From a bacterium (GTDB lineage Bacteria > T1Sed10-126), in NCBI GenBank assembly GCA_003557545.1, contig PWOD01000134.1, positions 1 to 33,585 on the forward strand: a DNA stretch of 33,585 nt, given 5' to 3'. The position numbers and the translations under genes are program-made. The notes beneath the pieces were generated by a model. The model searched no databases. It worked only from the letters and a program-made list of their open reading frames with translations, and was not told the origin of the DNA. Shown piece after piece: positions 1 through 30,561 of this stretch. Position 1 is the first letter of the stretch, and the number at the start of each line of letters is the position of its first letter.

Positions 1-3000
1 CCATCCGGCTCCACCGTTAGCCGTCGAGCCGGCGAACTGGGAATAGCCGTAAACAGACTGATCGAGATCGTTGACCAGCTGAAAATATGAATCAAGGAAT
101 CCCTTGGCATTATTCAGATGCTCCCAATTGGCGATCTCAAAGGGATCTTCTACCGTGCCACGGCCATCCTCAAAAGGTGGCTGGAAGCTGGCTGTCGCTG
201 CCAGATCCTCAACCATAAAGATAGATTGAGTCGGCTGCGTACCGGTCAAATCACCGGACCAATGCTGGAACTGCCACGGCCAGATTGGAGTTGCATGGAA
301 ATTAACAGTTTGACTGGAGGGCATCTCTAACCGGAGAACTTCAGGGTAGGTCTCTCCATCAACAAAAATCTTCCCGCGATAACGCCGGGTATCATCATCT
401 TTGACAATTTCAACATCCCAGGCGGCACCATCAATAGATATCTCACCTTTTCCGCTGAGATAGATATCAAAATAGACAACCGGTAATTTCCAGGTGGGAT
501 CGGTGTCACCGGCAAAATATGGATAGCCACTATTAATATCTTCAGCTGTGTGAACAATATCCCAACCGGCATCCAGGTAGTTCTGAATATTTTTCATTTC
601 GGCTGTTGAAAGAGCAGTTCCACCGGCGCTATTATTCTGACCGGTAACCTGAGTATCCCAGAAACTATCGTCAACAGCACCCTCAAAACTAAATCCAACG
701 AGACCCCCGGCATTAGACGTACCAGAGACAGTACCGGCGACAAAGGTTTGGTCGACCGAACCCTCATTCTGACCGACAAGACCACCAACTCGATCATCTC
801 CAGAGACATTTACCATGGAATAGACCGTATCAAGTCGGCCATCCTCTTCCTGGCGACCAATCAAACCACCGGTGTAATCAGCACCCTGAACAGAACCAGC
901 ACGAATATTCAGATGACTGATCAGACCATAGTTTCTTCCGACTAACGCACCGGTAAAATCAGCACCCTGAACGGTAAAATCAGCAAGATTAAGATCGGTC
1001 ACGGTACTCTGTGGACCAACCACACCGAACAGGCCGACCTCATCCTGTCCAGATCGAGTTATATGGAAATTAGATATCGTCCGACCACGTCCATCCATAT
1101 GACCATCGAAGGGATCCGCGGAATTACCAAGTGGCTGCCAGCCAACAGGAATATTCACATATTGACTGTATCCCGGAGATTGATGATCAAGACTCTCCGA
1201 CAACATATAGTAGTTACCGGGGAAACATCTTACACTGTTCAGATGGTCCCAGCTGGCGATCCGATAAGGATCACCGGCGGTTCCCTGTCCTCCAGCAAAA
1301 TTCGGAACAAAGACCGCAGTAGTGTGGATATCATCAAGGACCAGAACTTCACGGACTGCATCCCAACCGGTCACATCACCCAACCAGCGTGAATGACGAT
1401 AACATTCGTCAACAACGGAGGCTTCCAACAGGACAGTCTCACCGCCGGGCAAGATCAGCGGGTCGGTATAAAAATGCCCCCCATTAACCGTAACATCTCC
1501 AACACCCTCCTGATCGATCGTAAGAAGATAGGTATCCGGCTTTGTAAAGGTCACCGTTGCTTCGGTCCAGGAGTCGATATAAACATCCATGATCCGCTGA
1601 TTACCGCTCAAATCCCCACCCCAACTATCAAATCTCCAGTAATCTTCGCCGAAGGTTTCCTCGGGAACAGCCTCCAAAGTATAGGTTTCACCAACGGAAG
1701 GAATGATTATCGGCTCAACATAGGGCGTACCGTTAACCAGGACCTCACCTTCACCAAAGATCTCCAGCTGGAAATTTTCAATCGTTTTTAACCAGATGGG
1801 ATTTTCATTTTCATCCATCGTCAAGAAAGGATAACCATCATTTTTCACAGTTGTGGTATCCTCAATCGTCCAGCCAGCATTAAGAAAGGTTCCAATCTCT
1901 GTCATCTGTTCGGTGGGAAGGGAAGTTCCTGCTCCATCCGAACGGCCGGCCGTATCCTGATCGAAGAAACAGTTATTAACTGTTCCCGATTGCTGACCGA
2001 TAAAGCCATTTACATTGGTATTACTAGATGCTGTCACATGTCCGGTGGAATAGGAGTTGGTAACAGTATTATAATTCCGACCGATAAACCCACCAATTTC
2101 TCGGTTGGGATTACGATCATCAAATATATCACCGGTGGAATAAGAGTTATGAACCTGCTGATTCAGCTCACCGATAAAACCACCCACATAACGATTACCT
2201 GAAACATCACCGGTTGAGTAACTGGAGCGGACATGTCCGCTGCCCCGGGAATCACCCACTAAACCACCAACGTACTGATTTCCACTAACCTCTCCGGTTG
2301 CATAGGAATAATGGATATGACGGCCCTGAAAATAACCAACCAGTCCACCGGTATAGTTCTGCCCGCGAACATCACCGGTGGCATAAGAATATTCAATTTC
2401 GAGATTACCGGCACCCCAGCCAACAAGACCACCGGTATAATCCCGATTGCTAGTATTAACATTACCGGTGGCATAAGAGCGATAAATCCGGGAATTGTTA
2501 TAGGCATAACCTACAAGGCCACCACGATCACGCTGAGTAGAATTAACATCGCCGGTGGCATAAGAGTATTCTATCAACCCGTTGGGCATCCGACCGACAA
2601 GTCCACCAATAAAACGGTGGTTGCCACCATTGACGGTTCCCTCGGCGAAAGAATGGCTGATCGTTCCATTATCGTTATCACCGACCAGCCCACCCTGCCG
2701 TTGATTGCTTCCAGTAATTTCTGCATCAGAACTGGAATGCTCAATTAGCCCATAATTACGGCCAACCAGACCTCCACCATCATATCGGGCCCGAATATCG
2801 CCCGAACTATGAGAGTTATAAATCTCAGCCCCATTGTCATTCTGACCAACAAGTCCACCAAAAAAATCATACCGTCCGTGAACATAAGCGTCAGCCGTGG
2901 AGTTACGGATAACCGCACCGCTGTAGTTCTGGCCGACCAGACCGCCCAACTCATAATCACCAGGGCCAACCTCACCTTCAAAATGGGAGTTATCAATCTC

Positions 3001-6000
3001 GCCATGGTTTCTCCCGATCAGACCACCAATTCGACGTCTGATATCTCCACGGACCCGGCCTTCAATCCAGACATTATAGATTTCACCGTAGTTGTAGGCG
3101 GCAAGACCTCCAACATCATTATTTCCATAGACATAGATATCTTCCAGACCGAGGTTGATAACCCGGCCAGCCGATTCAATCCGCTGAAAAAGACCTATTT
3201 CATTAGTCCCGGAATGGTTGACATTAAGACCGGAGATAGTATGTCCACGCCCATCAAGCTGACCGGTAAAATTACCCAGACGGGTCCAATTGCTAATATA
3301 GCCATGGGCGGTTTCATCAAAATCAGTTATCACAGCATAATAAGCACTGAGATTATTACGTATATCATCCAGATGTTCCCAGTTAGCTATGAGATAGGGG
3401 TTATCTTCAGTTCCATCCCCACCGGCAAACTCAGTCGCCTCCACAAAATTAGCCGTAATCTCTTTGTCAGAATTAACCACTAACTCCAGCTCGGCCTCAG
3501 GAGAGCTAATATCACCGCTCCAGTTATCAAACTCCCAGAAAACATTTCCGGCAAAATCGGACAGCGGCCGAGCTTCAATTAATATGGTTTCTCCAGGTGT
3601 TACCATGATTGGTTCAACATAAGTGTCGCCATCAACAAAAATAGTTCCCTCACCATTGATAGAAACTATTTCAAAAGAACTACTAAGTACCCATCCATCG
3701 GTGTCCGGGTTCAGATAAGGATACCCATCATTTACATAAACAGTAGTTGGTTCGATAGCCCATCCAGCATCAAGGAAAGTTTGTAACCCACGCATTTCAA
3801 AACGGCTCTTTCCGGTTCCACCAGCACTACTGGACTGACCTGAACTATCAACATCCCAGAAACTGGCATCAACAGTTGTGGCTGCTGCGCTACCAATCAG
3901 CCCACCAACCGAGGCATCCCCTGTGACTGAAGCAGCTGCGTAAGATTCTAACAGCTGGGCCCCATCGGCCTGACCAATCAAACCAGCTGTATGATCCTGC
4001 CCGACAACCTCACCCATAACATAACTACTGGCAAGACTACCGGTAAATCTACCGAACATACCACCTGTATAATCAGCTCCCGAAACCATCCCGGTCAATC
4101 CGATGGTATTCAGCTGACCGGAACCATAACCGGCAAGACCACCGGTATAATCCCCACCGGTGACCATAAAATTATCCAAACGAAGATCAAAAATCTCCGC
4201 GCCCGTATCCAGAATCCCAAACAGCCCAATATAATCTGAATCGGAGCGGTCGATATAATAATCACTAATTGTCTTGCCCTGACCATCAAAGACACCGCTG
4301 AACCCGGTTAAAAGATCACCCACAGGTTCCCAGCCTCTATCAGCATGGGCGGTGGCCGAAGCATATTCCTGATAACCAAAGGTGGCTGAATCAAGATCGT
4401 TAATCAATAAATAGTCGGCATCCGGGAACCAGCGCATATTATTCAAATGGTTCCAGTTGGCGATTTCAAAGGGTGCTTCCGGATCACCATATCCAGCGGC
4501 AAACAGATCATCGTGAAAGATAAGTTCAACATTTGTATCGGTTTCAACGAATAACTGATCGATCCGCTCGGTACTTACCAGGGCTCCACCCCATTCAACA
4601 AAGAACCAGTAATCAGCCGGAAGTGCTTCCAGGACAACCGACTCCCCGGGTTGAACAACCATTCCCGGTTCAGTATAAGTTTCACCATTGACCAGCAAGG
4701 TTCCCTCACCGGTAATATCAACGGTCAGATAAGTGCTCTTGACCCAGACCGGATCGGCTTCGCCGGTGGGGTGGGGATAACCATCATTAATATCCTCACC
4801 AACATTAACTATCGACCAGCCAAGATCGACGTAGGTCTGAAAATCAAGCAGTTGCTGATTAGATTTAGGTTCACCCAGCGGACTGCTGGATTGACCGCTG
4901 ATATCTTCATCCCAGTAGCTATCCACAGCCTGAGATCCTGCAGTTATGTCACCCACCAATCCACCCACCAGGAAACCACCGTCAACATTACCGCTGGCGT
5001 AACTCTGTTCTATATAGCCATCCTGGTCAAACCCGACCAGACCCCCCACAGCCTGCATTCCTTCAACATCAACACGGCTGTAAGAGTTAAATATTGAGGC
5101 TTCCAGATTAAAGCCGACCAGTCCACCCACACCATTATCGGAAATAACCTGACCCCGGGCATAAGAAGCAGAAATAGTTCCCTGGTCATTCTGTCCGACC
5201 AACCCCCCGATTTGGGTCTGACCACCAGAAAGTTGGATATCTACACCGGAGGTATGAATTTCCCCCAGCCGGTTTCTTCCTACCAGTCCACCAATTCTGT
5301 CGCCAATTCCAACAACTTCACCCTCTAAATAACTGTTTTGAATTGTTCCTTCATTTTCACCCGCCAGCCCACCAACCTCCTCATCACCTGAGACATAAAC
5401 AGATGTCAGCTGCAGCGAATCAACCACAGCGCCACTCAAAAGATGACCGAACATACCGACCAGAGCCTCACCGGGCCGATCGATATAGAGGCCGGATATA
5501 GTATGATTCTGGCCATCAATCTGACCACTAAAGCTAGCCACAGGATCCCACCCGGCTCCACCGTTAGCGGAAGAGCTGGCGTAATCATCATAGCCGTCAG
5601 AGGACTCATCGATATCCTCAATAAGCTCAAAATAAGCATTACTGAAATCACGGACATTCTGCAGATGGAGCCAGGAGGCCAGCTGATAGGGTGATTCCTC
5701 GGTTCCCTGTCCTCCAGCAAACTGCTCCGGTTGAAAGCTGGCCAGAACAGTCCGATCGGTAGTTACATAAAGCTGTTGTTCCACGACATCACCCTGCAGG
5801 TCACCATCCCACTCAACAAATCCCCAGTAAGAATCCGGTGCGGCGGAGAGGGTAACAGTTTCTGATACGATCAGAGGTTCAAGATAGGTCTGTCCATCGA
5901 TTTTAACAGTACCCTGACCATCAATATTTACCAGTAACAGGGGTGATTTTTGCCAGCTTCCTGTTGCCTGAGAGATTATCGGATAACCATCATTAGCCAG

Positions 6001-9000
6001 CTGATCGGAGTAGGAGATTGCCCAACCTTCGGCAAGATAGTTGCTTAACTGACGCATTTGGGTTGAATCCCGACCAACCCCACCGTCGCTAACAGTGACC
6101 TCGGAACTTTCCATATCCCAGAAACTGCCAGAAATAGTTCCGGTATTATTACCGATCAATCCACCCCGCTGCGTAGCTCCATAAACTTTTCCAGTAGAAT
6201 AAGAGTTAGTAAGATTACCGCTGTTCCAACCGATCAGCCCACCAACTTCACCCTCACCCTCGACCCATGTCCGGGCATAAGAATTAGTGATTGAGTTCAG
6301 ATTACGACCAACCAAACCACCGACCCGATCAGCTCCAGAGGTTACTGTGGTTTCGGTGAAACTACCGGTTATTGTGCCATCATTATATCCCACAAGACCT
6401 CCGGCATAGGCTCCACCATAGACAGGACCGGTAACAGATGAGCGATCTACCTGGGACTGGTTTTCACCGACCAGACCACCAATTCGCTCGGTTTGACCAA
6501 CGACTTCGGCAGCCGACTGAACATAACGAATCAAACCGGAGTTGATACCTATAACTCCGCCAACCTGTTGGTCGGCCTCGACTTTACCATCGACGAACAG
6601 CTCCGACACAGTGCCAGAAAGATGGCGGCCAACAACCGAGCCGACCGCGTAATTGGCAGTAATATCAAAATCCAACAGCTGAAAATCAGTTATTACTCCA
6701 CCATCAACAACACCAAAAAGTCCCTGGTTGCCACTATCAGGCCGATCGATATAGAGATCTTTTATAGCAAAACTATCTCCTGAAAAATTACCGGAGAAGG
6801 GAGTTGACTGGTCACCCAGCGGATACCAACCGGAATAATCCCGGGCCTGGGGCCCGGCCAGTTCATCATACCCTGCAGTTGTTTGATCAAGATCGGTCAC
6901 CAGTTTAAAATAGGCCTCCGGATGGTTCCGGACATTATCAAGATGGGCCCAGGTGATAATTTCATAGGGCTGCTCCTCAGTTCCCTCGCCACCGGCAAAT
7001 TCAGAGACTTCAAAGTTCGCCCTGATAACCTTATTAGCATCCATTAAAACAGTCTTAACCGGTTCCGTGCCAGACAGATCAAGATCCCATCCGGCGAACC
7101 TCCAGTACTGATCCTCGGGAACACTCACATAGGGAACAGCTTCCAGCGTGATTGTATCACCGGCAAGAACTGTTTCAACATAACTATCCCCATCGATCAG
7201 AACCGTCCCCATTCCTTCAATATGAACAGTTATCCTGGTCGCAATTCTCCAGGTCGGCGTGCTTCCAGTCAGGTAGGGATATCCATCATTTTTCTCAACA
7301 TCAGAGCCAATAATGTCCCAGCCCGCCGCTGTAAAACTACTTATATCTTTAATTTCATCAGTCGCAAGACCGCTGGCTCCAGCACTCGATTCTTCGCCCG
7401 ATTTTTCAATGTCCCAGAAACTATTACTGATTGTTTCAGTATTTACGGCGGCAAACCCACCAACCTGGTTAAGCCCACTGACCTCGACTGTGGAATAGGT
7501 AGAATCAATCGTTCCGGCATTATGAGCAACAAATCCGGCAACAACTTCATTCCCGTCAACCTGACCGTGAACAAAGGAGTTCTCGATGGTTCCATCCTCG
7601 AGCTGGCCAGCAACGCCACCAAGATAATCAGCTCCGGTAATAGCAACATCAAGCTCTGCGAGCGCGATCTCACCACCGGTGATATGGCCGGCAACACCAC
7701 CAAGATGATTTCTACCATAGACTGCTATTCTTCCACCAGAACCACCGCCTGAAGCCTTAAAGTTAAGTCTGCCTTGATAACCGATTGTGTCAGGCGGACC
7801 AGAAACCTGCATAGCCGACATACGTCCGGCCAGACCACCGAGGTAATCATTTCCACTAATATCTGCAGCAACATCCAATCCCCATGCATGACCCGTATCA
7901 GCAAGTCCGACTACACCACCAAGGTAATCTCCACCCTCCAACTGCAGATCGATATCCAGCAGCATCAGCTCAACATCTTGGGCATGACCGGCCACTCCAC
8001 CCAGATAGTTGGCACCGTTGATATCTCCTTCTAATGCAAAACCGGTAACCTCTGAGTTAATCAACCGACCGGCAACACCACCAAGATAATCAGTCCCGGA
8101 GATGGAAAATTTAACAGTGCTATTTTCATCCAGATCAACTGTTGATCCAGCTAACGTCCCGGCAACCCCCCCAACATAATTTAAACCCTTGGTTTCAACA
8201 TCAATTTCAAAGATACTGGAGATGGTTGTACTATCGGCCTGACCAAACAGACCACCAACATAACTATCCCCAATCACTTCAGCGCTGAGGTGCATGTCGG
8301 AGATCTCACCAGAAAAAGTTCCGGCCAGGGATCCCACACGGGAGCGACCCCAACACCAGAGGTCATCCCCTTCAACTGCACTCATTTTTGCCCCTTCAGC
8401 CCTTCCGGCAAGAGCGCCCACATACTGATTACCCTGAACTTCCCAGCCGGACAGTTTGAGGTTACTGATTTCACCTTCCAACCGAGAAAAGAGTCCGACA
8501 TAATCAGAGTCGGTGCGATCGATATAAAGGTCACTTATTGTATAACCGCGACCATCCAGAGTTCCAGTAAAGTTACCTACTACACTATCACCCGGATCCC
8601 AGCCTAACCCCTGGTTAGCATCGGGACCGGCAATGCTGTCATAACCTCGTGTAGAGGAATCCAGATCATTCGCCAGCCGATAATGGAGGTCGGGAAAGCC
8701 TCTGATACTCTCCAGATGATGCCAGTCAGAGATCTCATAGGGAAACTCCTCAGTTCCGTCACCGGCCTGAAAATAAGGGGTGAATTCAGCCAGCAGACTC
8801 AGATCCTCTTCAACCATAAACTCAACAAAGGTATCGGGACCCGAGAGGTCCTCCCACCAGTGTGAGAACTGATAAAATTCAGCGGGGACAGCCTCGATAG
8901 TGGCCAGTTCATGGCTGGGCAACTCGACCGGAGCAAGATAGGTTTCACCATTGATCAGTACCTTACCCTCACCCTCTATTTGGACAGTAATATAGATATA

Positions 9001-12000
9001 AGGCAACTGCCAGACCGGAGTATCCTCGGAAAAATAAGGGTATCCCTGATTGTCAACTTGAGCGGCGCGAACAATATCCCACCCGGCATCACGATAGGTA
9101 TTTACATTTTTCATTTCAGCGGTGGTCAGAGGTTTACCACCAACACTTTCATCAACCCGGGTCGTTTCGAGGTTCCAGAAACTGTTTTCAATCCGGCCAG
9201 CCGACCCAGCACGGGCAACTAATCCCCCGGAATTTTCACTGGCAGTAATTTTACCAAGTGCATACCCACGATTGATATGTCCCGATTGATTAACAGCTAT
9301 CAACCCGGCGGCAAACCGCTCGCTGGCCTCAATCTCCCCGGTGCTATATATATCTGTCAATATTCCCTCATCAACCGAACCAGCCAGTCCACCTACTCTA
9401 TTTCGACCGGTGAGATGAACTTCAGAAAAGGACTGTTCAAGCTGAAATTGATCGACCTTACCAACAATTCCGCCCAGCTCGTCACGACCGGCAATAGTCC
9501 CATTTACACCAATTTCATGGGCAGTTAACTCCTGGGCGCGACCAACAGCTCCCCCTACCTGATCACGACCGTGAAGTTCAACCATTATATCGACTGTGGA
9601 AAACTGACCGGTTTCTAAAAATCCTACCAACCCACCAAGCTGATTCCCACCATGAAGTTCTCCAGAAACTGTCAGATCAGAAATTTCAGCACGGCGAGCG
9701 TATCCCGCGACTCCACCAACCTTTTCCCTTCCGATTAGATGCAGGTTATCAAGCAGCAGATCGGTCACCTTGAACTCGTCATTTACAAAGCCAAATAGAC
9801 CGACAAACTCACGATCGGGGCGGTCAACAGTCAGATCAGCTATCGCATAACCCTGACCATCCAGAGTTCCCCTGAAGGGCTGCCAGTGATTAAGTCCCAC
9901 CGGGTCCCAACCAGCACTATCGTTAGCCGCGCTGGAGGCAACTGTTTCATAACCCCAGGTCCCGCTATCGAGATCGCCGATCAGTTCATAATGAGCTGTA
10001 AGATCATCACGTATATTGTTCAGGTTATACCAGTTTATTATCCGGTAAGGTGTTTCTTTAGAACCATCCCCACCAGCGAAATCATCAGCAACAAAACTGG
10101 CCTCAACCTTTCTATCCATGCTCATATCAAGGGTTTGGAACAGGTCGGTTCCAACAACATCGCCGTCCCATCCAACAAACTGCCAGTATTCAGCCGGATC
10201 CGCCAGAAGCTCTATAGTATCAGCCGTTGTAACCGGCTCCCGATAACGGTCACCGTCTACCCAGATCTCACCGGCGCCCTCAATTTCAAGTACCAGCGTG
10301 GGACTTTTAAGCCATATCGGGGTGTCACCACTGAGATAAGGATAGCCATCATTATTAACCTCTACAGTCTGCTCAATATCCCAGCCGGCAGCAGTATAAT
10401 TAACCAACTGTTTCATTTCAGCTGTCGTCCAACCAACCCCACCGTCACTCTCGTCCTGACCGGTCAGATCAACATCCCAGTAACTGTGTCTTACTATACC
10501 GGCTATGTTATAACCAATAAGTCCACCCAGATCAACCTCACCTGTAAGCGGGGCGGCCGCATAACTGTTTTCAACCAGGGCATCCTCGAGGAAACCGATT
10601 AACCCCCCGACTTCGTGGGCACCCGTCAGTTCTACCCGAGCATAAGAGTTTCTGATAGCCCCCTGCTCTAACAATCCAACAAGTCCACCAGCCTTATCCG
10701 CAGCAGTTAACTGACCGGACGCATATGCTTGAGAAATCTGGCTGTTATAACTGGCCCCGGCCAGACCACCCGATTTATCTCCAGCATCGAGGGTAAGATT
10801 TTGAACTGCAGCGTGATGAATGGCCGCATGATAATTTCGACCAACCAGGCCACCGGTGTAATAGTCCCCCGCCAGGACCAGCTCATCTGCCTCAATACTG
10901 CTTAAATCAGCCTGGTTCGCACCGGCCAGGCCACCCAGATAATTTCCACCGGAAACAGCACCATGGTTCAGGTGAAGGTTTTCAATTGAGGCACAAGCAC
11001 TATAACCGGCAACAGCACCTACATAGTTTTTCCCGGTGACAACAAAATCTTCAAGAATCAGATCGGTCAGAGTTCCGTCACCGGAGATATGGCCAAACAA
11101 CCCCACATAATCGACCTGCGGATGATCCGCACGGAGGCCTGTAATCGTATGTCCCGCTCCATCGAGATGGCCGGTGAAAGCAGTTGTTTCATTACCAACT
11201 GGTATCCAGCCACTATCAGCAGCGACAAATTTTTCGTAACCATCAGTTTGTTCATCCAGATCAGCAGTCAGCTGAAAATCAGCTGTAAGAAAACAGCGCA
11301 TGCTATTAAGTTGATACCAGTTAGAAATCTCATAGGGCTCTTCCGCCGTCCCCTGTCCAGCATCAAAATTCGGTTTGAAGAGAGCGGTAACGGAATGATT
11401 GTCAACCACAGCCAGATATTTAACCAATTCATCCCCGGTAAGTTTTCCCTGCCACTGTTTAAAACGATAACAGATATCGCTTTCCAGAACAGTAAGCTGA
11501 ACGGTTTCTCCCACCATCAGGGGCAGAGGAGCGATGTAGGTATCACCATCAACCATAATATCACCCTGACCAACAATATCAACAGTCAGAAAGACAACCG
11601 GTAGTTGCCAGTAAGGATCAGCTTCTTCGTTCAAATAAGGATATCCATCATTGCCGGCAACTGTGGTCGTATCAATCTCCCAGCCGGCGGCTTGATAACT
11701 ATAAATGTTCTTCATCTCAACAGTGGTCAAAGCCATCCCGCCGGCGCTTTCCGACTGTCCAGTGGCCAGTTTGTCCCAAAAACTATCCTCCACAGCGGAT
11801 GTCACCTGATGACCAATCAACCCACCGGCCCGATTATCAGCAGTTACGGGACCAGCAGCGTACGAATTAGAAACAAGACTGTCATCAAGATAACCAACCA
11901 GTCCGCCTGCTTCAAGCTCAGCAGCAACCTGGCTGCGGGAGAAAGAGTTGACGATAGAGCCCTCAACACTATTTCCCACCAGCCCACCGATCTGATTTTC

Positions 12001-15000
12001 ACCCCAGACAGAACCGGTTGACCAGGCGTATTCGATCGAACCATCACGCCAATTTCGTCCAACCAGCCCACCTACACGATAGTCACCACTAACGTCTGCT
12101 TCCGAACTAACCCACTGCAGCTGCCCGTCATTTCGACCAACCAGCCCACCAACCCTGGTTCGACCACTGACTGTACCGGCCGCGGTAACGTTGCTAACCG
12201 TTCCAGCTTCTAAATGGCCCAGCAAACCACCCACGTACCAATCACCCCGTATGTCGAGGTATTCAAGCTGCAGGTCGGCAATAGCAGCCTGATGACCGGC
12301 CAGACCGAACAAACCAACGAAAGATTCTTCAGGCCGTTCTATATAAAGATCAGAAATTGTATGATTTGCACCATCAAATGAACCGGTGAAGGGAGTATCG
12401 ATGCCATCGTCAGGGCGACCTTCTCCCAACGGTTGCCAGCCTAAACCGGCATGGGCATGGGAGGAGGCCAGCTCCTCATAGCCATAGCTGAGCTGGTCCA
12501 GATCGTCGATCAGCCGGAAATAAGCATCCAGATGATCACGGACGTTATTCAACTGTGTCCAGTTAGCTATCAGATAAGGATCGGCAGCGGTCCCTTCACC
12601 CCCGGCGAACTCATCGGGAGCAAAGTCGGCCTGAAGATTTATACTATCATCAACATAGATTTCAACCAGCGTATCAGAGCTGTGAAGATCACCGCTCCAG
12701 CCGACAAAATGCCAGTATAACTCGGGCACAACCTCCAGCACGATAGTTTCGCCAACCACCGGAGTCAGCTGTTCCACATATGTTTCACCATCTACCAGAA
12801 CATCACCCAATCCAACTATATCGATTGTCAGATGAACAACCGAAATCTCCCAGATCGGACTATCACCGGTAAGATAAGGATAACCATCATTTTCCACCTG
12901 TAAGACACCTTCAATATCCCAACCGGCATCACTATACAGTGCTAAAGATTTCATCTCCGAGGTGGTTTTTCCTTCGCCACCATCACTGGTCGGCTGCTGA
13001 GAAAGATCAATATCCCAGAAACTTGCCAGGACATCTCCCTGGTTATCAGCCACAAGGCCCCCACCGCTATTATGAGCAATGACCTCAGCAGTCGAATAAA
13101 GGTTTTCAAGAGTCCCGTGGTTAGAGCCACTGACACCGGCCACAGCAGACTGCCCGGTTACCAGACCTCGAACAAAACTGTTTAGTATTGTGCCCTGGTT
13201 GACCCCGACAACTCCACCCACATCAACCTGACCATTTACTTCACCGACAAAACTGGTCAGCTCCAGCTGACCGGCATGGTGGCCGACAACTCCACCAACC
13301 TGATCGGTTCCATTAACCACTGTTGTTTTAAAAGTTAATTTAGTTAGATTAGTATTATCGTTATGGCCGATTAAACCACCGGTGTTGTTTTCCCCATCCA
13401 CCAGGTGATCAAGAACTTCACCCCGGCTGACAGTTCCGCCTTCGGTCTGTCCGATAAGCCCCCCAACGGAATTAGCACCGGTAACATCCAGACCCTGAAG
13501 CAGAAAATCATCAAGGTCGGTCTGCTGACTGTGACCGATAACTCCACCCACCCGGTCATCGGCAGCTATCAGAAGATCAGCTGCATCCAGATTAGTTATT
13601 GTTAGATCGACCCCGGTGCCAAGCAATCCACCAACATTATTATTACCATGAATTTCAAAATCGATCAGATCGATCTGATCAAACTGACTCTGTCCTGCAT
13701 GACCGGCCAGACCACCAAGATTATCATCTCCTGTTACCTGACCGGCACCAACAATTATATTTACAAAAGTTGCCTGCTCCGCCACACCTACCAGACCAGC
13801 CGTATAATCGGCACCGGTAAGTTGATAATCCCGCAGTTGGAGATTCTCCACCGCAGCGGTACCGGCGATATAACCAAAGAGGCCGACCGCTTCCTGACCC
13901 GGACGATCGACGTAAAGATCATCCACAATATGATTCTGACCATCAAGATGGCCGGTGAAAGGTTCTGACTGACTACCAATTGGCTGCCAGCCGGCACCTC
14001 CATCAACCGTTGGTCCGGCATAAATATCATATCCATAGGAATTTTCATCAATATCATCGGTAATAATAAAGTAAGAGTCGGGATAATCCCGAACATTGTG
14101 CAGATGAGACCAGGCAGCGATTTGAAAAGGATCGGTTTCAGAACCGGAGCCACCATCAAACTGGTCCTCAGTGAAAAACGCAGCGATCTGCTTATCCCCA
14201 TCAATGAATAACTGCTGGAGGGGGACGGTTCCGGCAAGGTCTCCATCCCAGAAAACAAACGACCAAAAATCATCAGCTACTGCTTCGAGGGTCGCGGTTT
14301 CTCCAGGCACAGCACCGGTAACCCCTTCCTGTGGAACACCGTTCACCAAAACATGGCCGTCACCAAAAATATTTATATCAAGTTGATTACTGATCAACCA
14401 GACCGGAGAGACCTCGCCGGAGATATAGGGATAACCATCGTTCCCATAAACTCCCGATCCTTCAATATCCCAGCCGGCATTAAGAAAAGTATCCAGCCGT
14501 TTCATTTCATCCGTTGTTTTACCCTCAATATCACTGGTTGCTTCATCATTACCTATACCATCGGTCAAACCGGAGCTTTCAATATCCCAAAAACTATTCT
14601 GAATGACACCGGTAAAAATATTCTGACCAAGTAGTCCCCCAGCACGTCCGTCTGCCACCACCTCACCGGTAGCGAACGAGTTGCTGATTGTCGAACGGTT
14701 TTCTCCGACCAGTCCCCCGGCAATTATACTGGAAGCAAAAACCTCCGCCCGGGAGTAGCTATTAGTAATATTACCCGGTTCGTTTCGGCCAACCAGACCA
14801 CCAACCTCAGCACTACCTGTGACGGTTCCGGCGGAGGATGAACTGGCAATCAGACCCTGGTTACGACCAGCCAAACCACCGGTTCTTTCCTCCTCAGAAT
14901 TGACAGTAAGGTCGACATGGGAGTAGATAATAGTTCCCTCACTCTCATTCAACCCGACCAGACCACCGACCAGACGGTCATTTCCAGTTACCTGGCCCCC

Positions 15001-16461
15001 TTCAACCAGAACATTCCGAACCATGGCTCGACTCAAGCCGGCCAGTCCACCAACCCGGCCATTACCGAAAACAGTAATATTTTGCAGCGTAAGATCAACT
15101 ATTGAACAGCCCTCATCGGCATAACCAAACAGCCCTACATAATCATCACTATCACGATCGATATAAAGATCACCAATAGTGTGATCATTACCATCAAAAA
15201 TTCCTTCAAAGGTAACCGCACTGTTACCAATAGGCTCCCAGCCCGAACCACCATGGGCAGCCGGACCGGCCAGATCAGCATAGCCAACGCTGTTTTCATC
15301 AAGATCACGAATCAGAATAAAACTTGAATCACGATAATCACGGACATTATGTAACTGTTCCCAGCTGGCAATCTGGAAGGGATCGAGAATGGTTCCGGAA
15401 CCAGCATTAAACTCAGCTTTAGAAAAGCTGGCTGTGATATTCATATCTTGATCGATTAACAGGGTTTCAGCTGGATTATCACCACTCAAAGCCCCACCCC
15501 AGCTATTCAACTCCCAGAGTTCCTCAGGTACCGCAGTAATTTCGACAGTTTCGTTACCCGGCAGAAATAACGGTTCAACATAGGTTTCACCATCGACCAG
15601 AACGACACCCTCCCCACTAACAACCTGCACAGTCAGTTCCAGAATCGGAAGCTGCCAGATCGGCGTATCGGCCAACAGCTGGGGATAACCTCCGTTAGTA
15701 ATTATATTAGTTGGTTCAATATCCCACCCGGCATTAGTAAAGGTTTCAATATCTTTCATCTGTTTTGTTGTTTTACCTTCGCCGCCCTGGCTGCTGGGTT
15801 GACCAGAACTATCAATGTCCCAAAAACTTTCTATTACCTGACCGGTTGGTTCAGCCTGTCCAACAAGACCACCCACCATGTCCAGCCCATTAACTGAAGC
15901 TGCAGAAAAGACATGCTCAATCGAACCGGCATTTACTCCGCTGATTCCTCCCACCCAGAAATCACCGTTCACCTGCCCGGTAACGTAGGTTTGATAAATT
16001 TCCGCACCATCAGCCACCTGACTGACCAGTCCCCCCACATAATCTCCACCGGTAATCTGCACACTGCGCAACCCGAGCCCACTAATCCTTCCACCGGCTT
16101 CAAGAGTTCCAAACAAACCGATTTCCGACGCAAAACGATCGATAAAAAGGCTGGATATCTGATAACCCTGCCCGTTAAGCTGCCCGGAAAAACTATCTAT
16201 CGGATCCCAGCCAAATCCCCCATCGGCAGTGGGTCCAGCAAGATCACCATACCCGGGACTGCTACTGGTCAGATCATTCATCAGTACATAGTACGCCCCC
16301 GGGTCAGCTCGCATTTCATCAAGCTGCCACCAGTCCTCAATCTGATAAGGATCAGTATCGGTCCCGGAACCAGCTCCGGAAAAGGCAAAAATAACGGTTG
16401 GAACAAACAACATTGTACAAAGGATGGAAAAGACTACAAGAATCTTATAGGAATGCTTCAT
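1..16461 (-). CDS. Giant secreted/surface repeat protein: signal peptide + GLUG-repeat / InlB-B-like cassettes (partial; C-terminus beyond left edge)
   Basis: ATG at 16459-16461 (minus) with GGGAGG upstream (plus cctccc 16472-16477). N-terminus reads MKHSYKILVVFSILCTMLFVPTVIFAFSGAGSGTDTDPYQIEDWWQLDEMRADPGAYYVLMNDLT. The last in-frame residues at the left edge read ..DLDQSVYGYSQFAGSTANGGAGW. All minus ORFs the track lists in this interval lie in another frame (end coordinate = 2 mod 3). No ORF ending at a stop in the 0 mod 3 frame is listed, consistent with this frame having no stop from 16461 to 1. Confidence 0.93.
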   Translation of the reverse strand, partial: MKHSYKILVVFSILCTMLFVPTVIFAFSGAGSGTDTDPYQIEDWWQLDEMRADPGAYYVLMNDLTSSSPGYGDLAGPTADGGFGWDPIDSFSGQLNGQGYQISSLFIDRFASEIGLFGTLEAGGRISGLGLRSVQITGGDYVGGLVSQVADGAEIYQTYVTGQVNGDFWVGGISGVNAGSIEHVFSAASVNGLDMVGGLVGQAEPTGQVIESFWDIDSSGQPSSQGGEGKTTKQMKDIETFTNAGWDIEPTNIITNGGYPQLLADTPIWQLPILELTVQVVSGEGVVLVDGETYVEPLFLPGNETVEITAVPEELWELNSWGGALSGDNPAETLLIDQDMNITASFSKAEFNAGSGTILDPFQIASWEQLHNVRDYRDSSFILIRDLDENSVGYADLAGPAAHGGSGWEPIGNSAVTFEGIFDGNDHTIGDLYIDRDSDDYVGLFGYADEGCSIVDLTLQNITVFGNGRVGGLAGLSRAMVRNVLVEGGQVTGNDRLVGGLVGLNESEGTIIYSHVDLTVNSEEERTGGLAGRNQGLIASSSSAGTVTGSAEVGGLVGRNEPGNITNSYSRAEVFASSIIAGGLVGENRSTISNSFATGEVVADGRAGGLLGQNIFTGVIQNSFWDIESSGLTDGIGNDEATSDIEGKTTDEMKRLDTFLNAGWDIEGSGVYGNDGYPYISGEVSPVWLISNQLDINIFGDGHVLVNGVPQEGVTGAVPGETATLEAVADDFWSFVFWDGDLAGTVPLQQLFIDGDKQIAAFFTEDQFDGGSGSETDPFQIAAWSHLHNVRDYPDSYFIITDDIDENSYGYDIYAGPTVDGGAGWQPIGSQSEPFTGHLDGQNHIVDDLYVDRPGQEAVGLFGYIAGTAAVENLQLRDYQLTGADYTAGLVGVAEQATFVNIIVGAGQVTGDDNLGGLAGHAGQSQFDQIDLIDFEIHGNNNVGGLLGTGVDLTITNLDAADLLIAADDRVGGVIGHSQQTDLDDFLLQGLDVTGANSVGGLIGQTEGGTVSRGEVLDHLVDGENNTGGLIGHNDNTNLTKLTFKTTVVNGTDQVGGVVGHHAGQLELTSFVGEVNGQVDVGGVVGVNQGTILNSFVRGLVTGQSAVAGVSGSNHGTLENLYSTAEVIAHNSGGGLVADNQGDVLASFWDIDLSQQPTSDGGEGKTTSEMKSLALYSDAGWDIEGVLQVENDGYPYLTGDSPIWEISVVHLTIDIVGLGDVLVDGETYVEQLTPVVGETIVLEVVPELYWHFVGWSGDLHSSDTLVEIYVDDSINLQADFAPDEFAGGEGTAADPYLIANWTQLNNVRDHLDAYFRLIDDLDQLSYGYEELASSHAHAGLGWQPLGEGRPDDGIDTPFTGSFDGANHTISDLYIERPEESFVGLFGLAGHQAAIADLQLEYLDIRGDWYVGGLLGHLEAGTVSNVTAAGTVSGRTRVGGLVGRNDGQLQWVSSEADVSGDYRVGGLVGRNWRDGSIEYAWSTGSVWGENQIGGLVGNSVEGSIVNSFSRSQVAAELEAGGLVGYLDDSLVSNSYAAGPVTADNRAGGLIGHQVTSAVEDSFWDKLATGQSESAGGMALTTVEMKNIYSYQAAGWEIDTTTVAGNDGYPYLNEEADPYWQLPVVFLTVDIVGQGDIMVDGDTYIAPLPLMVGETVQLTVLESDICYRFKQWQGKLTGDELVKYLAVVDNHSVTALFKPNFDAGQGTAEEPYEISNWYQLNSMRCFLTADFQLTADLDEQTDGYEKFVAADSGWIPVGNETTAFTGHLDGAGHTITGLRADHPQVDYVGLFGHISGDGTLTDLILEDFVVTGKNYVGAVAGYSACASIENLHLNHGAVSGGNYLGGLAGANQADLSSIEADELVLAGDYYTGGLVGRNYHAAIHHAAVQNLTLDAGDKSGGLAGASYNSQISQAYASGQLTAADKAGGLVGLLEQGAIRNSYARVELTGAHEVGGLIGFLEDALVENSYAAAPLTGEVDLGGLIGYNIAGIVRHSYWDVDLTGQDESDGGVGWTTAEMKQLVNYTAAGWDIEQTVEVNNDGYPYLSGDTPIWLKSPTLVLEIEGAGEIWVDGDRYREPVTTADTIELLADPAEYWQFVGWDGDVVGTDLFQTLDMSMDRKVEASFVADDFAGGDGSKETPYRIINWYNLNNIRDDLTAHYELIGDLDSGTWGYETVASSAANDSAGWDPVGLNHWQPFRGTLDGQGYAIADLTVDRPDREFVGLFGFVNDEFKVTDLLLDNLHLIGREKVGGVAGYARRAEISDLTVSGELHGGNQLGGLVGFLETGQFSTVDIMVELHGRDQVGGAVGRAQELTAHEIGVNGTIAGRDELGGIVGKVDQFQLEQSFSEVHLTGRNRVGGLAGSVDEGILTDIYSTGEIEASERFAAGLIAVNQSGHINRGYALGKITASENSGGLVARAGSAGRIENSFWNLETTRVDESVGGKPLTTAEMKNVNTYRDAGWDIVRAAQVDNQGYPYFSEDTPVWQLPYIYITVQIEGEGKVLINGETYLAPVELPSHELATIEAVPAEFYQFSHWWEDLSGPDTFVEFMVEEDLSLLAEFTPYFQAGDGTEEFPYEISDWHHLESIRGFPDLHYRLANDLDSSTRGYDSIAGPDANQGLGWDPGDSVVGNFTGTLDGRGYTISDLYIDRTDSDYVGLFSRLEGEISNLKLSGWEVQGNQYVGALAGRAEGAKMSAVEGDDLWCWGRSRVGSLAGTFSGEISDMHLSAEVIGDSYVGGLFGQADSTTISSIFEIDVETKGLNYVGGVAGTLAGSTVDLDENSTVKFSISGTDYLGGVAGRLINSEVTGFALEGDINGANYLGGVAGHAQDVELMLLDIDLQLEGGDYLGGVVGLADTGHAWGLDVAADISGNDYLGGLAGRMSAMQVSGPPDTIGYQGRLNFKASGGGSGGRIAVYGRNHLGGVAGHITGGEIALAELDVAITGADYLGGVAGQLEDGTIENSFVHGQVDGNEVVAGFVAHNAGTIDSTYSTVEVSGLNQVGGFAAVNTETISNSFWDIEKSGEESSAGASGLATDEIKDISSFTAAGWDIIGSDVEKNDGYPYLTGSTPTWRIATRITVHIEGMGTVLIDGDSYVETVLAGDTITLEAVPYVSVPEDQYWRFAGWDLDLSGTEPVKTVLMDANKVIRANFEVSEFAGGEGTEEQPYEIITWAHLDNVRNHPEAYFKLVTDLDQTTAGYDELAGPQARDYSGWYPLGDQSTPFSGNFSGDSFAIKDLYIDRPDSGNQGLFGVVDGGVITDFQLLDFDITANYAVGSVVGRHLSGTVSELFVDGKVEADQQVGGVIGINSGLIRYVQSAAEVVGQTERIGGLVGENQSQVDRSSVTGPVYGGAYAGGLVGYNDGTITGSFTETTVTSGADRVGGLVGRNLNSITNSYARTWVEGEGEVGGLIGWNSGNLTNSYSTGKVYGATQRGGLIGNNTGTISGSFWDMESSEVTVSDGGVGRDSTQMRQLSNYLAEGWAISYSDQLANDGYPIISQATGSWQKSPLLLVNIDGQGTVKIDGQTYLEPLIVSETVTLSAAPDSYWGFVEWDGDLQGDVVEQQLYVTTDRTVLASFQPEQFAGGQGTEESPYQLASWLHLQNVRDFSNAYFELIEDIDESSDGYDDYASSSANGGAGWDPVASFSGQIDGQNHTISGLYIDRPGEALVGMFGHLLSGAVVDSLQLTSVYVSGDEEVGGLAGENEGTIQNSYLEGEVVGIGDRIGGLVGRNRLGEIHTSGVDIQLSGGQTQIGGLVGQNDQGTISASYARGQVISDNGVGGLVGFNLEASIFNSYSRVDVEGMQAVGGLVGFDQDGYIEQSYASGNVDGGFLVGGLVGDITAGSQAVDSYWDEDISGQSSSPLGEPKSNQQLLDFQTYVDLGWSIVNVGEDINDGYPHPTGEADPVWVKSTYLTVDITGEGTLLVNGETYTEPGMVVQPGESVVLEALPADYWFFVEWGGALVSTERIDQLFVETDTNVELIFHDDLFAAGYGDPEAPFEIANWNHLNNMRWFPDADYLLINDLDSATFGYQEYASATAHADRGWEPVGDLLTGFSGVFDGQGKTISDYYIDRSDSDYIGLFGILDTGAEIFDLRLDNFMVTGGDYTGGLAGYGSGQLNTIGLTGMVSGADYTGGMFGRFTGSLASSYVMGEVVGQDHTAGLIGQADGAQLLESYAAASVTGDASVGGLIGSAAATTVDASFWDVDSSGQSSSAGGTGKSRFEMRGLQTFLDAGWAIEPTTVYVNDGYPYLNPDTDGWVLSSSFEIVSINGEGTIFVDGDTYVEPIMVTPGETILIEARPLSDFAGNVFWEFDNWSGDISSPEAELELVVNSDKEITANFVEATEFAGGDGTEDNPYLIANWEHLDDIRNNLSAYYAVITDFDETAHGYISNWTRLGNFTGQLDGRGHTISGLNVNHSGTNEIGLFQRIESAGRVINLGLEDIYVYGNNDVGGLAAYNYGEIYNVWIEGRVRGDIRRRIGGLIGRNHGEIDNSHFEGEVGPGDYELGGLVGQNYSGAVIRNSTADAYVHGRYDFFGGLVGQNDNGAEIYNSHSSGDIRARYDGGGLVGRNYGLIEHSSSDAEITGSNQRQGGLVGDNDNGTISHSFAEGTVNGGNHRFIGGLVGRMPNGLIEYSYATGDVNSTQRDRGGLVGYAYNNSRIYRSYATGNVNTSNRDYTGGLVGWGAGNLEIEYSYATGDVRGQNYTGGLVGYFQGRHIHYSYATGEVSGNQYVGGLVGDSRGSGHVRSSYSTGDVSGNRYVGGFIGELNQQVHNSYSTGDIFDDRNPNREIGGFIGRNYNTVTNSYSTGHVTASSNTNVNGFIGQQSGTVNNCFFDQDTAGRSDGAGTSLPTEQMTEIGTFLNAGWTIEDTTTVKNDGYPFLTMDENENPIWLKTIENFQLEIFGEGEVLVNGTPYVEPIIIPSVGETYTLEAVPEETFGEDYWRFDSWGGDLSGNQRIMDVYIDSWTEATVTFTKPDTYLLTIDQEGVGDVTVNGGHFYTDPLILPGGETVLLEASVVDECYRHSRWLGDVTGWDAVREVLVLDDIHTTAVFVPNFAGGQGTAGDPYRIASWDHLNSVRCFPGNYYMLSESLDHQSPGYSQYVNIPVGWQPLGNSADPFDGHMDGRGRTISNFHITRSGQDEVGLFGVVGPQSTVTDLNLADFTVQGADFTGALVGRNYGLISHLNIRAGSVQGADYTGGLIGRQEEDGRLDTVYSMVNVSGDDRVGGLVGQNEGSVDQTFVAGTVSGTSNAGGLVGFSFEGAVDDSFWDTQVTGQNNSAGGTALSTAEMKNIQNYLDAGWDIVHTAEDINSGYPYFAGDTDPTWKLPVVYFDIYLSGKGEISIDGAAWDVEIVKDDDTRRYRGKIFVDGETYPEVLRLEMPSSQTVNFHATPIWPWQFQHWSGDLTGTQPTQSIFMVEDLAATASFQPPFEDGRGTVEDPFEIANWEHLNNAKGFLDSYFQLVNDLDQSVYGYSQFAGSTANGGAGW
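1285..1800 (-). repeat. Two back-to-back InlB-B-like domains
   Basis: First copy: PIWLKTIENFQLEIFGEGEVLVNGTPYVEPIIIPSVGETYTLEAVPEETFGEDYWRFDSWGGDLSG. Second copy: YLLTIDQEGVGDVTVNGGHFYTDPLILPGGETVLLEASVVDECYRHSRWLGDVTG. The other inter-array segments I read have one copy. Confidence 0.8.
1890..3340 (-). repeat. Longest and most regular GLUG-repeat array in the protein
   Basis: Minus reading gives successive units such as SYATGDVNSTQRDRGGLVGYAYNNSRIYRSYATGNVNTSNRDYTGGLVGWGAGNLEIEYSYATGDVRGQNYTGGLVGYFQGRHIHYSYATGEVSGNQYVGGLVGD. The plus-strand DNA shows accggtggcataagag-type words about 77-92 bp apart between about 2040 and 2560. Confidence 0.85.
16384..16461 (-). other. Predicted Sec signal peptide of the giant protein
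   Basis: MKHSYKILVVFSILCTMLFVPTVIFA|FSG: basic n-region, long hydrophobic core, small residue (A) at predicted -1. Confidence 0.75.
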
Positions 16462-16511
16462 TTAGCATAAACCTCCCACTAATATTAGGGACTATTTTAG
16501 ACAGCTGTATC

Positions 16512-22373: not shown

Positions 22374-23198
22374 TTACTGTTCATCCCGAAACTTTTGCCG
22401 GGCCAGCAGCTGTATGCTGATCTGCAAAAGTTTTATAAGATTTTGATGCCGCTGTTCAACAACCAGTTCGGGCGCTGCCCGGCCATCTCCACCCTCCAGT
22501 GGGGGCAACAGCAACCCGAGGTTTTCTCCGGCCTCCTCCAATCGCCGGGTAAAACCGGGAATCCGACGAGCTCCCCTTCCCAGACATAAAATATCTCCGG
22601 TACGGAGCGGGTGGCTGAGAGAAAGTGGAAAAACCTCTCCGCCTCGCTCCCGAACTGAACGAAGCAAGAGCGGGTCAACCGGACAGCCCGGTAAAATTCG
22701 TAATGCCAGTTTAAAATCGAGAGCCAGACTGAGCCGCATTAAACTGTACAGATAGGGGCCGGGGCGACCGGCGTAACAGAGCTTTTCGACCTGCCCAATT
22801 TTCTGTTTAATTGTATAATAATCCGCCAGAACCTGACAGGGGGCAGCCCAGTCAGTTCCAAGATTTAACAGCGGCCGGCGAGATTTCATTGCCAGCTCCT
22901 CGGCCAGCCGGTGGCGGGAAAATTGAGCCAGACATACAACCCCTTCGGGCAGAGTTTCAGAGATAGTTTGAACTGCCTGTTCATCCCGAATTGTTGGACC
23001 AATCGCCCGGATATGCTGCTTACCGATCACGGCCAAAAGAAGCTCCCGGAGCAGGCTTGAATCCGCGGCCAGCCAGAGCGGAACCGTAACTTCAGAGTCC
23101 ACCCTGTCCAGCTGCTCCAACAGCCGGGCAAGAGAGCCGGGAGTTAAAAACTCAAGGCTCAGCAGATGGGGAGGAAACTCAATGCCGGTTCTACTCAT
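22374..23198 (-). CDS. Divergent ornithine/aspartate carbamoyltransferase-like protein, probably lacking canonical catalytic motifs
   Basis: 274 aa. HLLSLEFLTPGSLARLLEQL resembles the OTC N-terminus and NLGTDWAAPCQVLADYYTIKQKIG resembles OTC ..LTD..HPCQALADL.TI..K.G. No S-T-R-T-R phosphate-binding motif. Start overlaps the stop of the upstream gene by 8 nt. Confidence 0.7.
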   Translation of the reverse strand: MSRTGIEFPPHLLSLEFLTPGSLARLLEQLDRVDSEVTVPLWLAADSSLLRELLLAVIGKQHIRAIGPTIRDEQAVQTISETLPEGVVCLAQFSRHRLAEELAMKSRRPLLNLGTDWAAPCQVLADYYTIKQKIGQVEKLCYAGRPGPYLYSLMRLSLALDFKLALRILPGCPVDPLLLRSVRERGGEVFPLSLSHPLRTGDILCLGRGARRIPGFTRRLEEAGENLGLLLPPLEGGDGRAAPELVVEQRHQNLIKLLQISIQLLARQKFRDEQ

Positions 23199-25778: not shown

Positions 25779-28700
25779 TCACTCCCGGGAGTTGAACAGA
25801 GCCAGATGGCCGGGACCCAGTATACCCTGCAGCCGTTGGGCCAGGGCAGCTTCCAGACAGACATTCTGAGTAAGTTTTAAAAAAACCTGCTCATTCTGAT
25901 GATTAACAACAAGCCGAACCGGCGATTCACCGGGGAACTCAACCAGCTGTTCCTGGATCTTTCGCAACTGATCAATGCGCTGATGTTCGGTTAAATAGAT
26001 GTTCAACCCGGGGAGAAAATCAGCTGACAGCGGCTGGAGATCTTTTATCCTCCAGCCGGTTGGAACAGACTCCATCTCACAGAGCACAACCCGCTGTTTA
26101 ACAGATTCCTGAGGAGCGGTCGGCAAAAGGGGAAAACTCTGTTCCTGCTGTTCACCGAGCAACTGCAGCTGCTCCCGGGACTGACCGGAGCAGAAAGCAA
26201 TCAGCTGAGCCGGGGCGACCAATCCCGCAACAGTAAAATTTTCTTGCTGCAGCAGCTCAACTCGGCCCGGAGTCAATAACTCCACAAGATGAAGGAATTT
26301 TTCCAGCGGATGACCTTCCGAATAATATCCAAGAACATCCCGTGCGGCCCGAGAACGCTGTTGGAAACTCCAGCCAGAACCGCTGGGAGGAACAAGTTTT
26401 TCCAGCTTCCGACCGGAGGCCTGAAAAAGATTTTCCTGCCCCGACCGTTGTTCACTATAGAGGGTTTGTCCCCGGCGCAAAAGATCCTCAGCATAATCAA
26501 CAAGCCCGGCCCGGGCAAGTTTAAAGGGATCAAAATATCCGGCTGCAGCTAGCGAGCGGAAACTTTCGAGGGTTAAATTTCGAGGGTTGAGCCGGGAAAA
26601 AAAATCAGTCAGATCATCAAACGGCTGTTTATCCTGCTCCTGCTCAATTCTCCGGGCCAACCTGGAACCAATATTTTTAATTCCACTCAATCCATACCTG
26701 ACCCCGTGCGAGGCAACTGAAAATTCAGCGCCAGAACTGTTAATTCGAGGGGGACAGAGCTGTAAACCATCACTCTCCATGGCCCGGGCGATTCGACCGA
26801 TTCGATCGCGATCGTGCGATTTAACCGTACATAGAGCGGCATAAAACTCCCGGGGGTAGTGGGCCTTAAGGTAGGCGGTGCGGAAGGTGATTTCAGCATA
26901 GGCAGCACTATGGGAACGATTAAACCCATACTGAGCAAAATTAGCCAGGGTGGAGAACAGCTGTTGAAGCCAGTTTTGATCATAACCGGCAGCCACTCCC
27001 CCTTCGATAAACTCCGTTTCCAGTGAAGCCATCAACTGCGGATTTTTTTTGCCCATGGCCCGGCGGAACAGATCAGCTCGAGACCAGCTAAAACCAGCAA
27101 CCACCCGGGCAATCTCCATAACCTGTTCCTGGTAGATTATTATTCCATAGGTATCCTCCAGAACTGGCTGCAGGTCAGGATGAGGATATTCAACCGGTTC
27201 ATCATTACTGCGGCGACGCAGGTAACTATCCACCATTCCCGACTGCAGTGGACCGGGCCGATAAAGTGCCAGGCAGGCCATCAGATCGGCCTTGGTGCGG
27301 GGTTCAACCCGCCGCACGAGATCCCGACAGCCGGCAGTTTCAAACTGGAATATTCCCTCCAGTGAGCCTTCCATCAAGAGCTTTCTTACAGAAGAATCAA
27401 GCCGGGTTATGTTTTCCAGACGAGGTCGGGAAGCGGCAGGAATCCGCTCCAGAGTCAACTCCAGAAGGGTCAGGGTTGTCAACCCGAGAATATCGAGTTT
27501 CAAATAGCCCAGGTTGTTAAGATCATACATATCAAACTGGGCGGCGGGCAGCCCCCCCTGGCTATCCCGATAGACCGGCAGCTGACGATCAAGCTCTTCG
27601 TTACCAATGACCAGACCGGCGGCATGAATCGAGGAGTTGCGCACAAGACCTTCGAGTTTTTTTGCCTGGTCATACCAATCTTCCAACCCCTCCTCCTGTT
27701 TGAGAGCAGCCTCCAGCTGTTCAAACCTCCGGGGCAGCTGATCCAGGGAAAAATCGCTATCGGCGGGAAAATAATTAAGCAGCCGGTTAATTTTCTCCTG
27801 GGGTTCCCCCCGGATTCTCCCGAGATCACGCAGAGCTGTCCGGGCCTTAATTCGATTAAATGTTATGATCTGCAGGACAGAACTATCACCAAACCGCCGG
27901 CGGATATAATCGATAACCTCATCCCGACGGCGATCGGCAAAATCAAGATCAATGTCAGGCATTTCGCGGCGCTCATCGTTTAAAAATCGTTCAAAAATCA
28001 GGTCATGTTGAAAAGGATCGATTTCAGTGATCCCCAGCAGGTAAGCAATCAGGGCACCGGCCGCCGAGCCGCGGCCCGGTCCCACAGCAATACCGGTTTT
28101 ACGGGCCCAGTTAACAATATCAGCAACAATTAAAAAATAATCCGAAAATCCCCTGCTGATTATAACCTTCAGCTCATGCTCCAGCCGTTCAACCGCCTGT
28201 TCCCGGGAAGCAGCCAGAGATTTTTCGTCAACTGCTTCACGGCAGAGTTGTTCCAAATATTCAGCCGAATCACGGGATTCCGGGCAGGGATAAGAGGGTA
28301 ACTTATGATTATCTTCCCGCAGCTCAAAATAACAGCGGCGGGCCAGACGCTCGGTCAAATCCAGGCGGTGAGACTGTTCACCCAACCAGCTGCGCATCTG
28401 CTGTTCATCGGCGATAAACTGCTGCCGGCGATAGGCCGGCAGCTCAGCCATCTCCGCCAGTCGGAGGTTTTCCTGAACCGCAATTCGCAGCCGTAAAACT
28501 TCTGAATCAGTTCTGTCAGGATAGTAGGCCGGATGGGTTATTATGGTTTCAATATCCAGTTCATCGGCCAGCCGGAGATATTGTCGTTCCCGGTCGGACA
28601 GTTGATCATAAAGGGGTAATTCAAAATAAAACCGGTCTTTATAAAGTTGTTTAGCCCGAACGAGAGCTTGTTTCAAATCATCCGGATCGCTCTGCCAGGG

Positions 28701-29120: not shown

Positions 29121-29160
29121 AATATTCCTCCCGCTATAAGCTATTTTTCTCCCCGGCTCA

Positions 29161-29179
29161 GGAAAAAGTTGATTTTTCC
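29161..29179. repeat. Inverted repeat between divergent dnaE and pduS-like genes
   Basis: GGAAAAA-gttga-TTTTTCC, flanked by ctcag (29157-29161) and ctgag (29184-29188). Confidence 0.6.
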
Positions 29180-29198
29180 CAGACTGAGAAGCTATTAT

Positions 29199-30560: not shown

Positions 30561-30561
30561 T

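Follow-up and report, generated by a model that had tools for sequence, protein, structure and literature searches.

What kind of protein is encoded by a reading frame that takes up nearly half of a bacterial contig and then runs off its end, and where in the cell would this protein be found? We analyzed a 33,585-nucleotide stretch of DNA (the window), which is the entire contig C61 of a 2.15-Mb genome assembly (G000; 239 contigs, estimated to be 91.9% complete), so the giant frame exits at the contig end. The first-pass annotation described a single minus-strand frame from position 16461 to position 1, and on re-translation it is indeed unbroken: it has an ATG start and zero stops over 5,487 codons. 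The other two sense frames of this region contain 216 and 606 stops. At the base composition found here, a frame of this length would arise by chance with log10 P of about -127, and the GC content at the three codon positions (0.61/0.43/0.42) is of the coding type. It is also the longest ORF once open-ended frames are admitted. The first-pass annotation had flagged the frame as missing from the ORF track. It is truly unlisted, but this reflects a listing rule and not biology: the default ORF list lacks it because frames that leave the source sequence go unlisted.

The start of the gene is as first described, with a signal peptide and a ribosome-binding site (Table 1). The N-terminus of the protein (MKHSYKILVVFSILCTMLFVPTVIFA) reads by eye as a signal peptide. 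No promoter-like site was found upstream of the gene, and no Rfam families were found within the window. The visible part has a computed mass of 584.0 kDa, in agreement with the initial estimate of 0.57-0.6 MDa. The giant is acidic and glycine-rich (pI 4.09, 1.2% lysine), in contrast to the adjoining housekeeping proteins (pI 5.4, 4.2% lysine).

Table 1. Features of the giant gene, with positions in the window.
Feature	Positions	Strand	Description
Giant GLUG/InlB-B surface protein	1..16461	-	open frame, 5,487 codons, cut at contig end
Shine-Dalgarno-like GGGAGG	16472..16477	-	10 nt upstream of ATG, read directly
Signal peptide	16384..16461	-	codons 1-26; cleavage after VIFA, by eye
Module 1	15412..16389	-	326 aa; GLUG solenoid and InlB-B-type domain
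Module 2	14161..15411	-	417 aa
Module 3	12610..14160	-	517 aa
Module 4	11368..12609	-	414 aa
Module 5	10081..11367	-	429 aa
Module 6	8773..10080	-	436 aa
Module 7	7000..8772	-	591 aa; extended solenoid
Module 8	5722..6999	-	426 aa
Module 9	4504..5721	-	406 aa; the single module modelled
Module 10	3430..4503	-	358 aa
Module 11	1300..3429	-	710 aa; 13 GLUG motifs
Module 12	175..1299	-	375 aa
Module 13	1..174	-	first 58 aa; cut by contig end

The visible protein consists of 12 complete modules (326 to 710 residues) and the beginning of a 13th. In each module, a GLUG beta-solenoid precedes a divergent InlB-B domain. In a typical module, the solenoid is followed by a conserved closing stretch (SFWD...GWDI...NDGYPYL) and then by the InlB-B-type domain. 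When the protein was searched in three thirds, Pfam's Glug family (PF07581) matched throughout the visible sequence (E = 2e-52, 9e-43, and 4e-53), with scores of 172, 142, and 175 bits against a gathering cut-off of 20.5, so the giant is a GLUG-repeat protein. Divergent matches to Flg_new_2/InlB-B were also found along the entire visible protein. The AlphaFold model of module 9 is a beta-solenoid (pLDDT 92.8), and its best PDB matches in Foldseek are the solenoids of IgA1-protease-type proteins (3n6z and 6xjb). No 25-mer occurs twice in the gene, and the modules are 25-43% identical to each other at the protein level.

The C-terminus of the giant cannot be read from this assembly because we found no contig that continues the left end of C61. 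This end did not overlap any contig end that we checked, and across the whole genome its outermost 150 bp matched only itself and, at 70% identity, a paralogous stretch within this gene. Extending the contig leftwards to the stop, as the first-pass annotation had suggested, therefore failed.

Relatives of the giant with visible C-termini are more informative. GLUG frames are found on many contigs of this genome (4,459, 4,363, 4,310, 3,024, and 2,846 codons; several are cut by contig ends), and two additional tailed frames, of 3,351 and 2,793 codons, lie on contig C133. In the stretches that we read, the GLUG or tailed frames add up to 188 kb, or at least 8.7% of the genome, which is a lower bound. 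The giant had been proposed to be a single exported protein of exceptional size. The single giant protein was confirmed, but it is not exceptional within its own genome, where at least five other frames exceed 3,000 codons. Among the 22 GLUG frames in G000 with a visible stop, 20 have one of two tails at the C-terminus: 10 have tail A (alignment A2) and 10 have tail B (alignment A3). The other two are an internally stopped frame on contig C214 and one frame without a tail; closed GLUG frames that lack a tail number one in G000 and two in G001, the second genome that we analyzed from this phylum. Because 20 of 22 end in tail A or B, we predict that the giant does so as well. BspA-LRR proteins and a subtilase carry tail A as well, so it is a portable tag. 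Among the anchors that were initially proposed (SLH, LPXTG, type IX/autotransporter, or dockerin), type IX has support from these paralogs; the others do not, and no SLH, LPXTG, or dockerin was found in the visible part of the giant or in the paralogs that we scanned. On contig C214 (L065, minus strand), two in-frame stop codons, a TAA and a TAG, interrupt a giant GLUG frame of over 5,350 codons.

We think that the giant is probably an outer-surface protein of the type IX secretion (T9SS) kind, and most likely a fibre with an adhesive or structural role. The first-pass suggestion of an exported adhesin or surface fibre is supported by the signal peptide, the beta-solenoid model, the acidic and glycine-rich composition, and the tailed paralogs. 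A narrower proposal is that the protein follows the same export route but has a structural role, as a matrix, sheath, or S-layer-like fibre, instead of being an adhesin that binds a partner. The regular modular rod, the very acidic composition, and the many paralogs (at least 8.7% of the genome) would all suit such a role. But the modules are highly divergent, unlike those of many ordered-array proteins, and the tagged set also includes the subtilase and the BspA-LRR cargo. We consider a purely structural role to be rather unlikely, although it is the strongest of the alternatives.

Are the tails really T9SS signals? Among the proteins scanned, tail A was matched weakly, and below the curated cut-offs, by CHU_C, Por_Secre_tail, and the C-termini of PorU and PorZ. 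The best score for TIGR04183 was 21.7 bits (the cut-off is 23) and the best for PF18962 was 18.9 bits (the cut-off is 27). Since the tails are below the model's cut-off, we do not classify them as formal members of TIGR04183. FlgD_ig also matches the tail weakly by sequence. We used AlphaFold to model tail A from a paralog (pLDDT 82), and the top PDB matches of the model were PorZ (5m11; E = 6e-7), PorU (6za2; E = 3e-4), and the NucA substrate tail (8glk_D; E = 6e-4). The only matches with E ≤0.001 were PorZ, two chains of PorU, and the NucA tail in a T9SS complex; FlgD ranks far below these four. Tails A and B are related to each other (profile-profile probability of 98.1). The tail-A profile has 35 matches in G000, a few of which are type-B tails, and 12 in G001. 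More broadly, 102 of 290 diverse genomes encode tail-A-like domains (E ≤1e-6). In one unrelated genome (contig G029:C6), tail-A-type domains are found on frames of 8,313 and 9,114 codons. Given how widespread the tail superfamily is, including on these two frames, tailed giants are not unique to this lineage.

We also identified candidates for the type IX machinery. A divergent SprA-like protein is split over contigs C23 and C86 (TIGR04189, E = 2.9e-21; 74.5 bits, as compared to a curated cut-off of 200). An SprA-like N-terminus is also found in G001 (52% identity), on a cut contig. The SprA-like pieces had no PDB relative by sequence. Six proteins match PorV_fam (NF033709) above its cut-off (116-167 bits vs. 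90). The stretches that we read contain 14 PorV-like genes, seven in each genome, and every one of them begins no more than 100 bp after a tailed gene; these stretches had been picked for tails or GLUG motifs, so PorV genes that are not linked to cargo would have escaped notice. Some of the PorV-like barrels behind tailed cargo have a C-terminal TPR-like extension (L069:8772-10094, L072:673-1962, L229:5309-6700, and L242:6214-7632). For the C25 peptidase or sortase (PorU), there was no match to PF01364, in a search that had no positive control (the controls gave nothing either).

If the tail were instead a generic Ig-like or FlgD-like terminal domain with no T9SS signal, then the giant would be exported by another outer-membrane route. 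This would be consistent with the weak FlgD_ig match, the missed cut-offs, the presence of tail-A-like domains in 102 diverse genomes, and the lack of PorU in a search without a positive control. Nevertheless, we view it as improbable: the four best fold matches are all T9SS tails, with FlgD far lower, and both of the analyzed genomes contain SprA-like sequences and cargo-linked PorV-family genes.

If the giant is indeed a T9SS-type surface protein, then the sequence suggests that its signal peptide would carry it across the inner membrane. Extrapolating from the one module that we modelled, the GLUG solenoids and InlB-B-type domains may stack into a long rod. We predict that a tail of type A or type B lies beyond the contig end and would be read by the SprA-type translocon, which would then export the chain over the outer membrane. 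A PorV-family barrel, of the kind that is encoded beside some of the cargo genes, might collect the tail and hold the protein at the cell surface, by analogy to SprB-SprF and PorV. The divergent modules along one rod could provide many binding or spacing sites.

Two other explanations for the giant are much harder to sustain. The GLUG solenoid has weak matches to Peptidase_M26_N (E = 9e-7 and 8e-11), and the modelled module is most similar in the PDB to the solenoids of IgA1 proteases, as expected if the giant were an IgA1-protease/ZmpA-type (M26) enzyme whose catalytic domain is past the contig end. But these matches are confined to the GLUG solenoid region, where the C-terminus of a GLUG paralog can be seen it is a sorting tail, and scans of these paralogs did not find an M26 catalytic domain; similarly, Pfam shows no metalloprotease catalytic domain within the visible 5,487 amino acids. 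We consider an M26 enzyme very unlikely. And although many contigs of this 239-contig assembly end within such genes, we reject as highly unlikely an artefact in which tandem modules from several genes were fused into one frame: a collapsed, chimeric, or misassembled repeat is implausible because no exact repeat within the gene reaches 25 bp and the modules are just 25-43% identical, GC and skew are uniform, and other contigs independently contain long frames (3,351 to 4,459 codons).

Our sample of the phylum is the two genomes, and the tails, the SprA-like N-terminus, and the PorV-family barrels are common to both. Both genomes also encode BamA and DnaE, and each has PolC-type matches. In G000, the gene order is rpsB-tsf-pyrH-frr-uppS-cdsA-dxr-rseP-ispG-proS-polC, after which come bamA, a skp-like stretch, lpxD, and lpxC/fabZ (genes that were not scanned were assigned by eye). 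Because BamA, LpxD, and LpxC/FabZ are encoded, an outer membrane is present. PolC and the rpsB-to-polC order are characteristic of Bacillota rather than of FCB bacteria. Together with BamA and LpxC, this gene content resembles that of diderm Bacillota. Two scans with DnaE gave no match above about 35% identity. In trees of RpoD and DnaE, the two genomes form a long branch with no supported neighbour; since these trees left the lineage unplaced, the Bacillota-like reading rests on gene content.

We also noticed some peculiarities of individual genes. The PolC gene (L170:6367-10680, plus strand; contig G000:C236) has one in-frame TAG, at codon 644, which could reflect an error in the assembly, variation between strains, or decay. 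For DnaE (window 25779-29309, minus strand), the mechanical GTG start is probably about 63 codons too early, as the alignment to G001 begins at Met64. Beside dnaE (window 28992-31110, plus strand) are an RnfC-like gene (TIGR01945) and then a protein with two BMC shell domains; this pair is reminiscent of the PduS-PduT microcompartment pair, and no other shell genes were seen in the window. Finally, beside argG and argH, the protein at 22374-23198 (minus strand) has a weak, sub-threshold match to the carbamoyltransferase domain OTCace_N and is possibly from a divergent family.

T9SS was found only in Bacteroidetes in a 2016 survey (PMC4793230), and in 2024 its genes were stated to be absent outside of the FCB phyla (PMC11285876). 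We tentatively propose that a type IX-like system is native to a deep diderm non-FCB phylum with Bacillota-like gene content, and that it has a one-cargo-one-partner design, with PorV-family barrels (some of them TPR-fused) each behind its own tailed cargo and a repertoire of mostly giant GLUG fibres. What is new in this lineage is the set of tagged proteins with PorV partners of their own; the giant itself is of a familiar type. Our literature search found no paper that links GLUG to type IX secretion. If our proposal is correct, then T9SS would have a wider range than has been reported, with SprA, PorV, and tails occurring alongside PolC, BamA, and LpxC in two genomes from another phylum, and this would inform the question of its spread. 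The pairs of cargo and PorV genes could be a simple test system for PorV's choice of substrates, and the GLUG family may illustrate how a small genome diversifies giant surface fibres through the divergence of modules.

Among the known systems, we compare the giant first to SprB, which is also giant in size. SprB is a repetitive gliding adhesin from Flavobacterium johnsoniae that is exported by SprA via its C-terminal domain and is held by a co-expressed FadL-type barrel, SprF (PMC9143113). Both are giant repetitive surface proteins, and we infer SprA-type export and a barrel partner here. However, the partner barrels here are from the PorV family, not PorP/SprF, and the giant in the window has no visible partner or tail of its own. 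The type-A cargo of T9SS, such as RgpB, PorZ, and PorU, has a tail that is a C-terminal 3+4 beta-sandwich (PMC11285876). Our model of tail A matches PorZ and PorU, but the tails here do not reach the cut-offs of TIGR04183 and PF18962, a search without a positive control found no C25 sortase, and the host's gene content is unlike that of the FCB phyla reported to have T9SS. The N-terminal region of IgA1 protease and ZmpA (M26) shares the GLUG-type beta-solenoid fold, but here the solenoid is repeated at least 12 times and no peptidase domain was seen. Giant1-5 of Apilactobacillus kunkeei are surface proteins of 3,000-8,000 amino acids with beta-solenoids that take up about 6% of a small genome (PMC12863079). 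They resemble the GLUG family in being very large beta-solenoid surface proteins that occupy a sizeable share of a small genome; they differ in that their host is monoderm, their solenoid is N-terminal only, and they have no outer-membrane sorting tail. More generally, surface attachment is among the main groups of huge bacterial proteins (over 5,000 amino acids; PMC11573180). The giant is in the same size class, but here the giants come from a single paralogous family.
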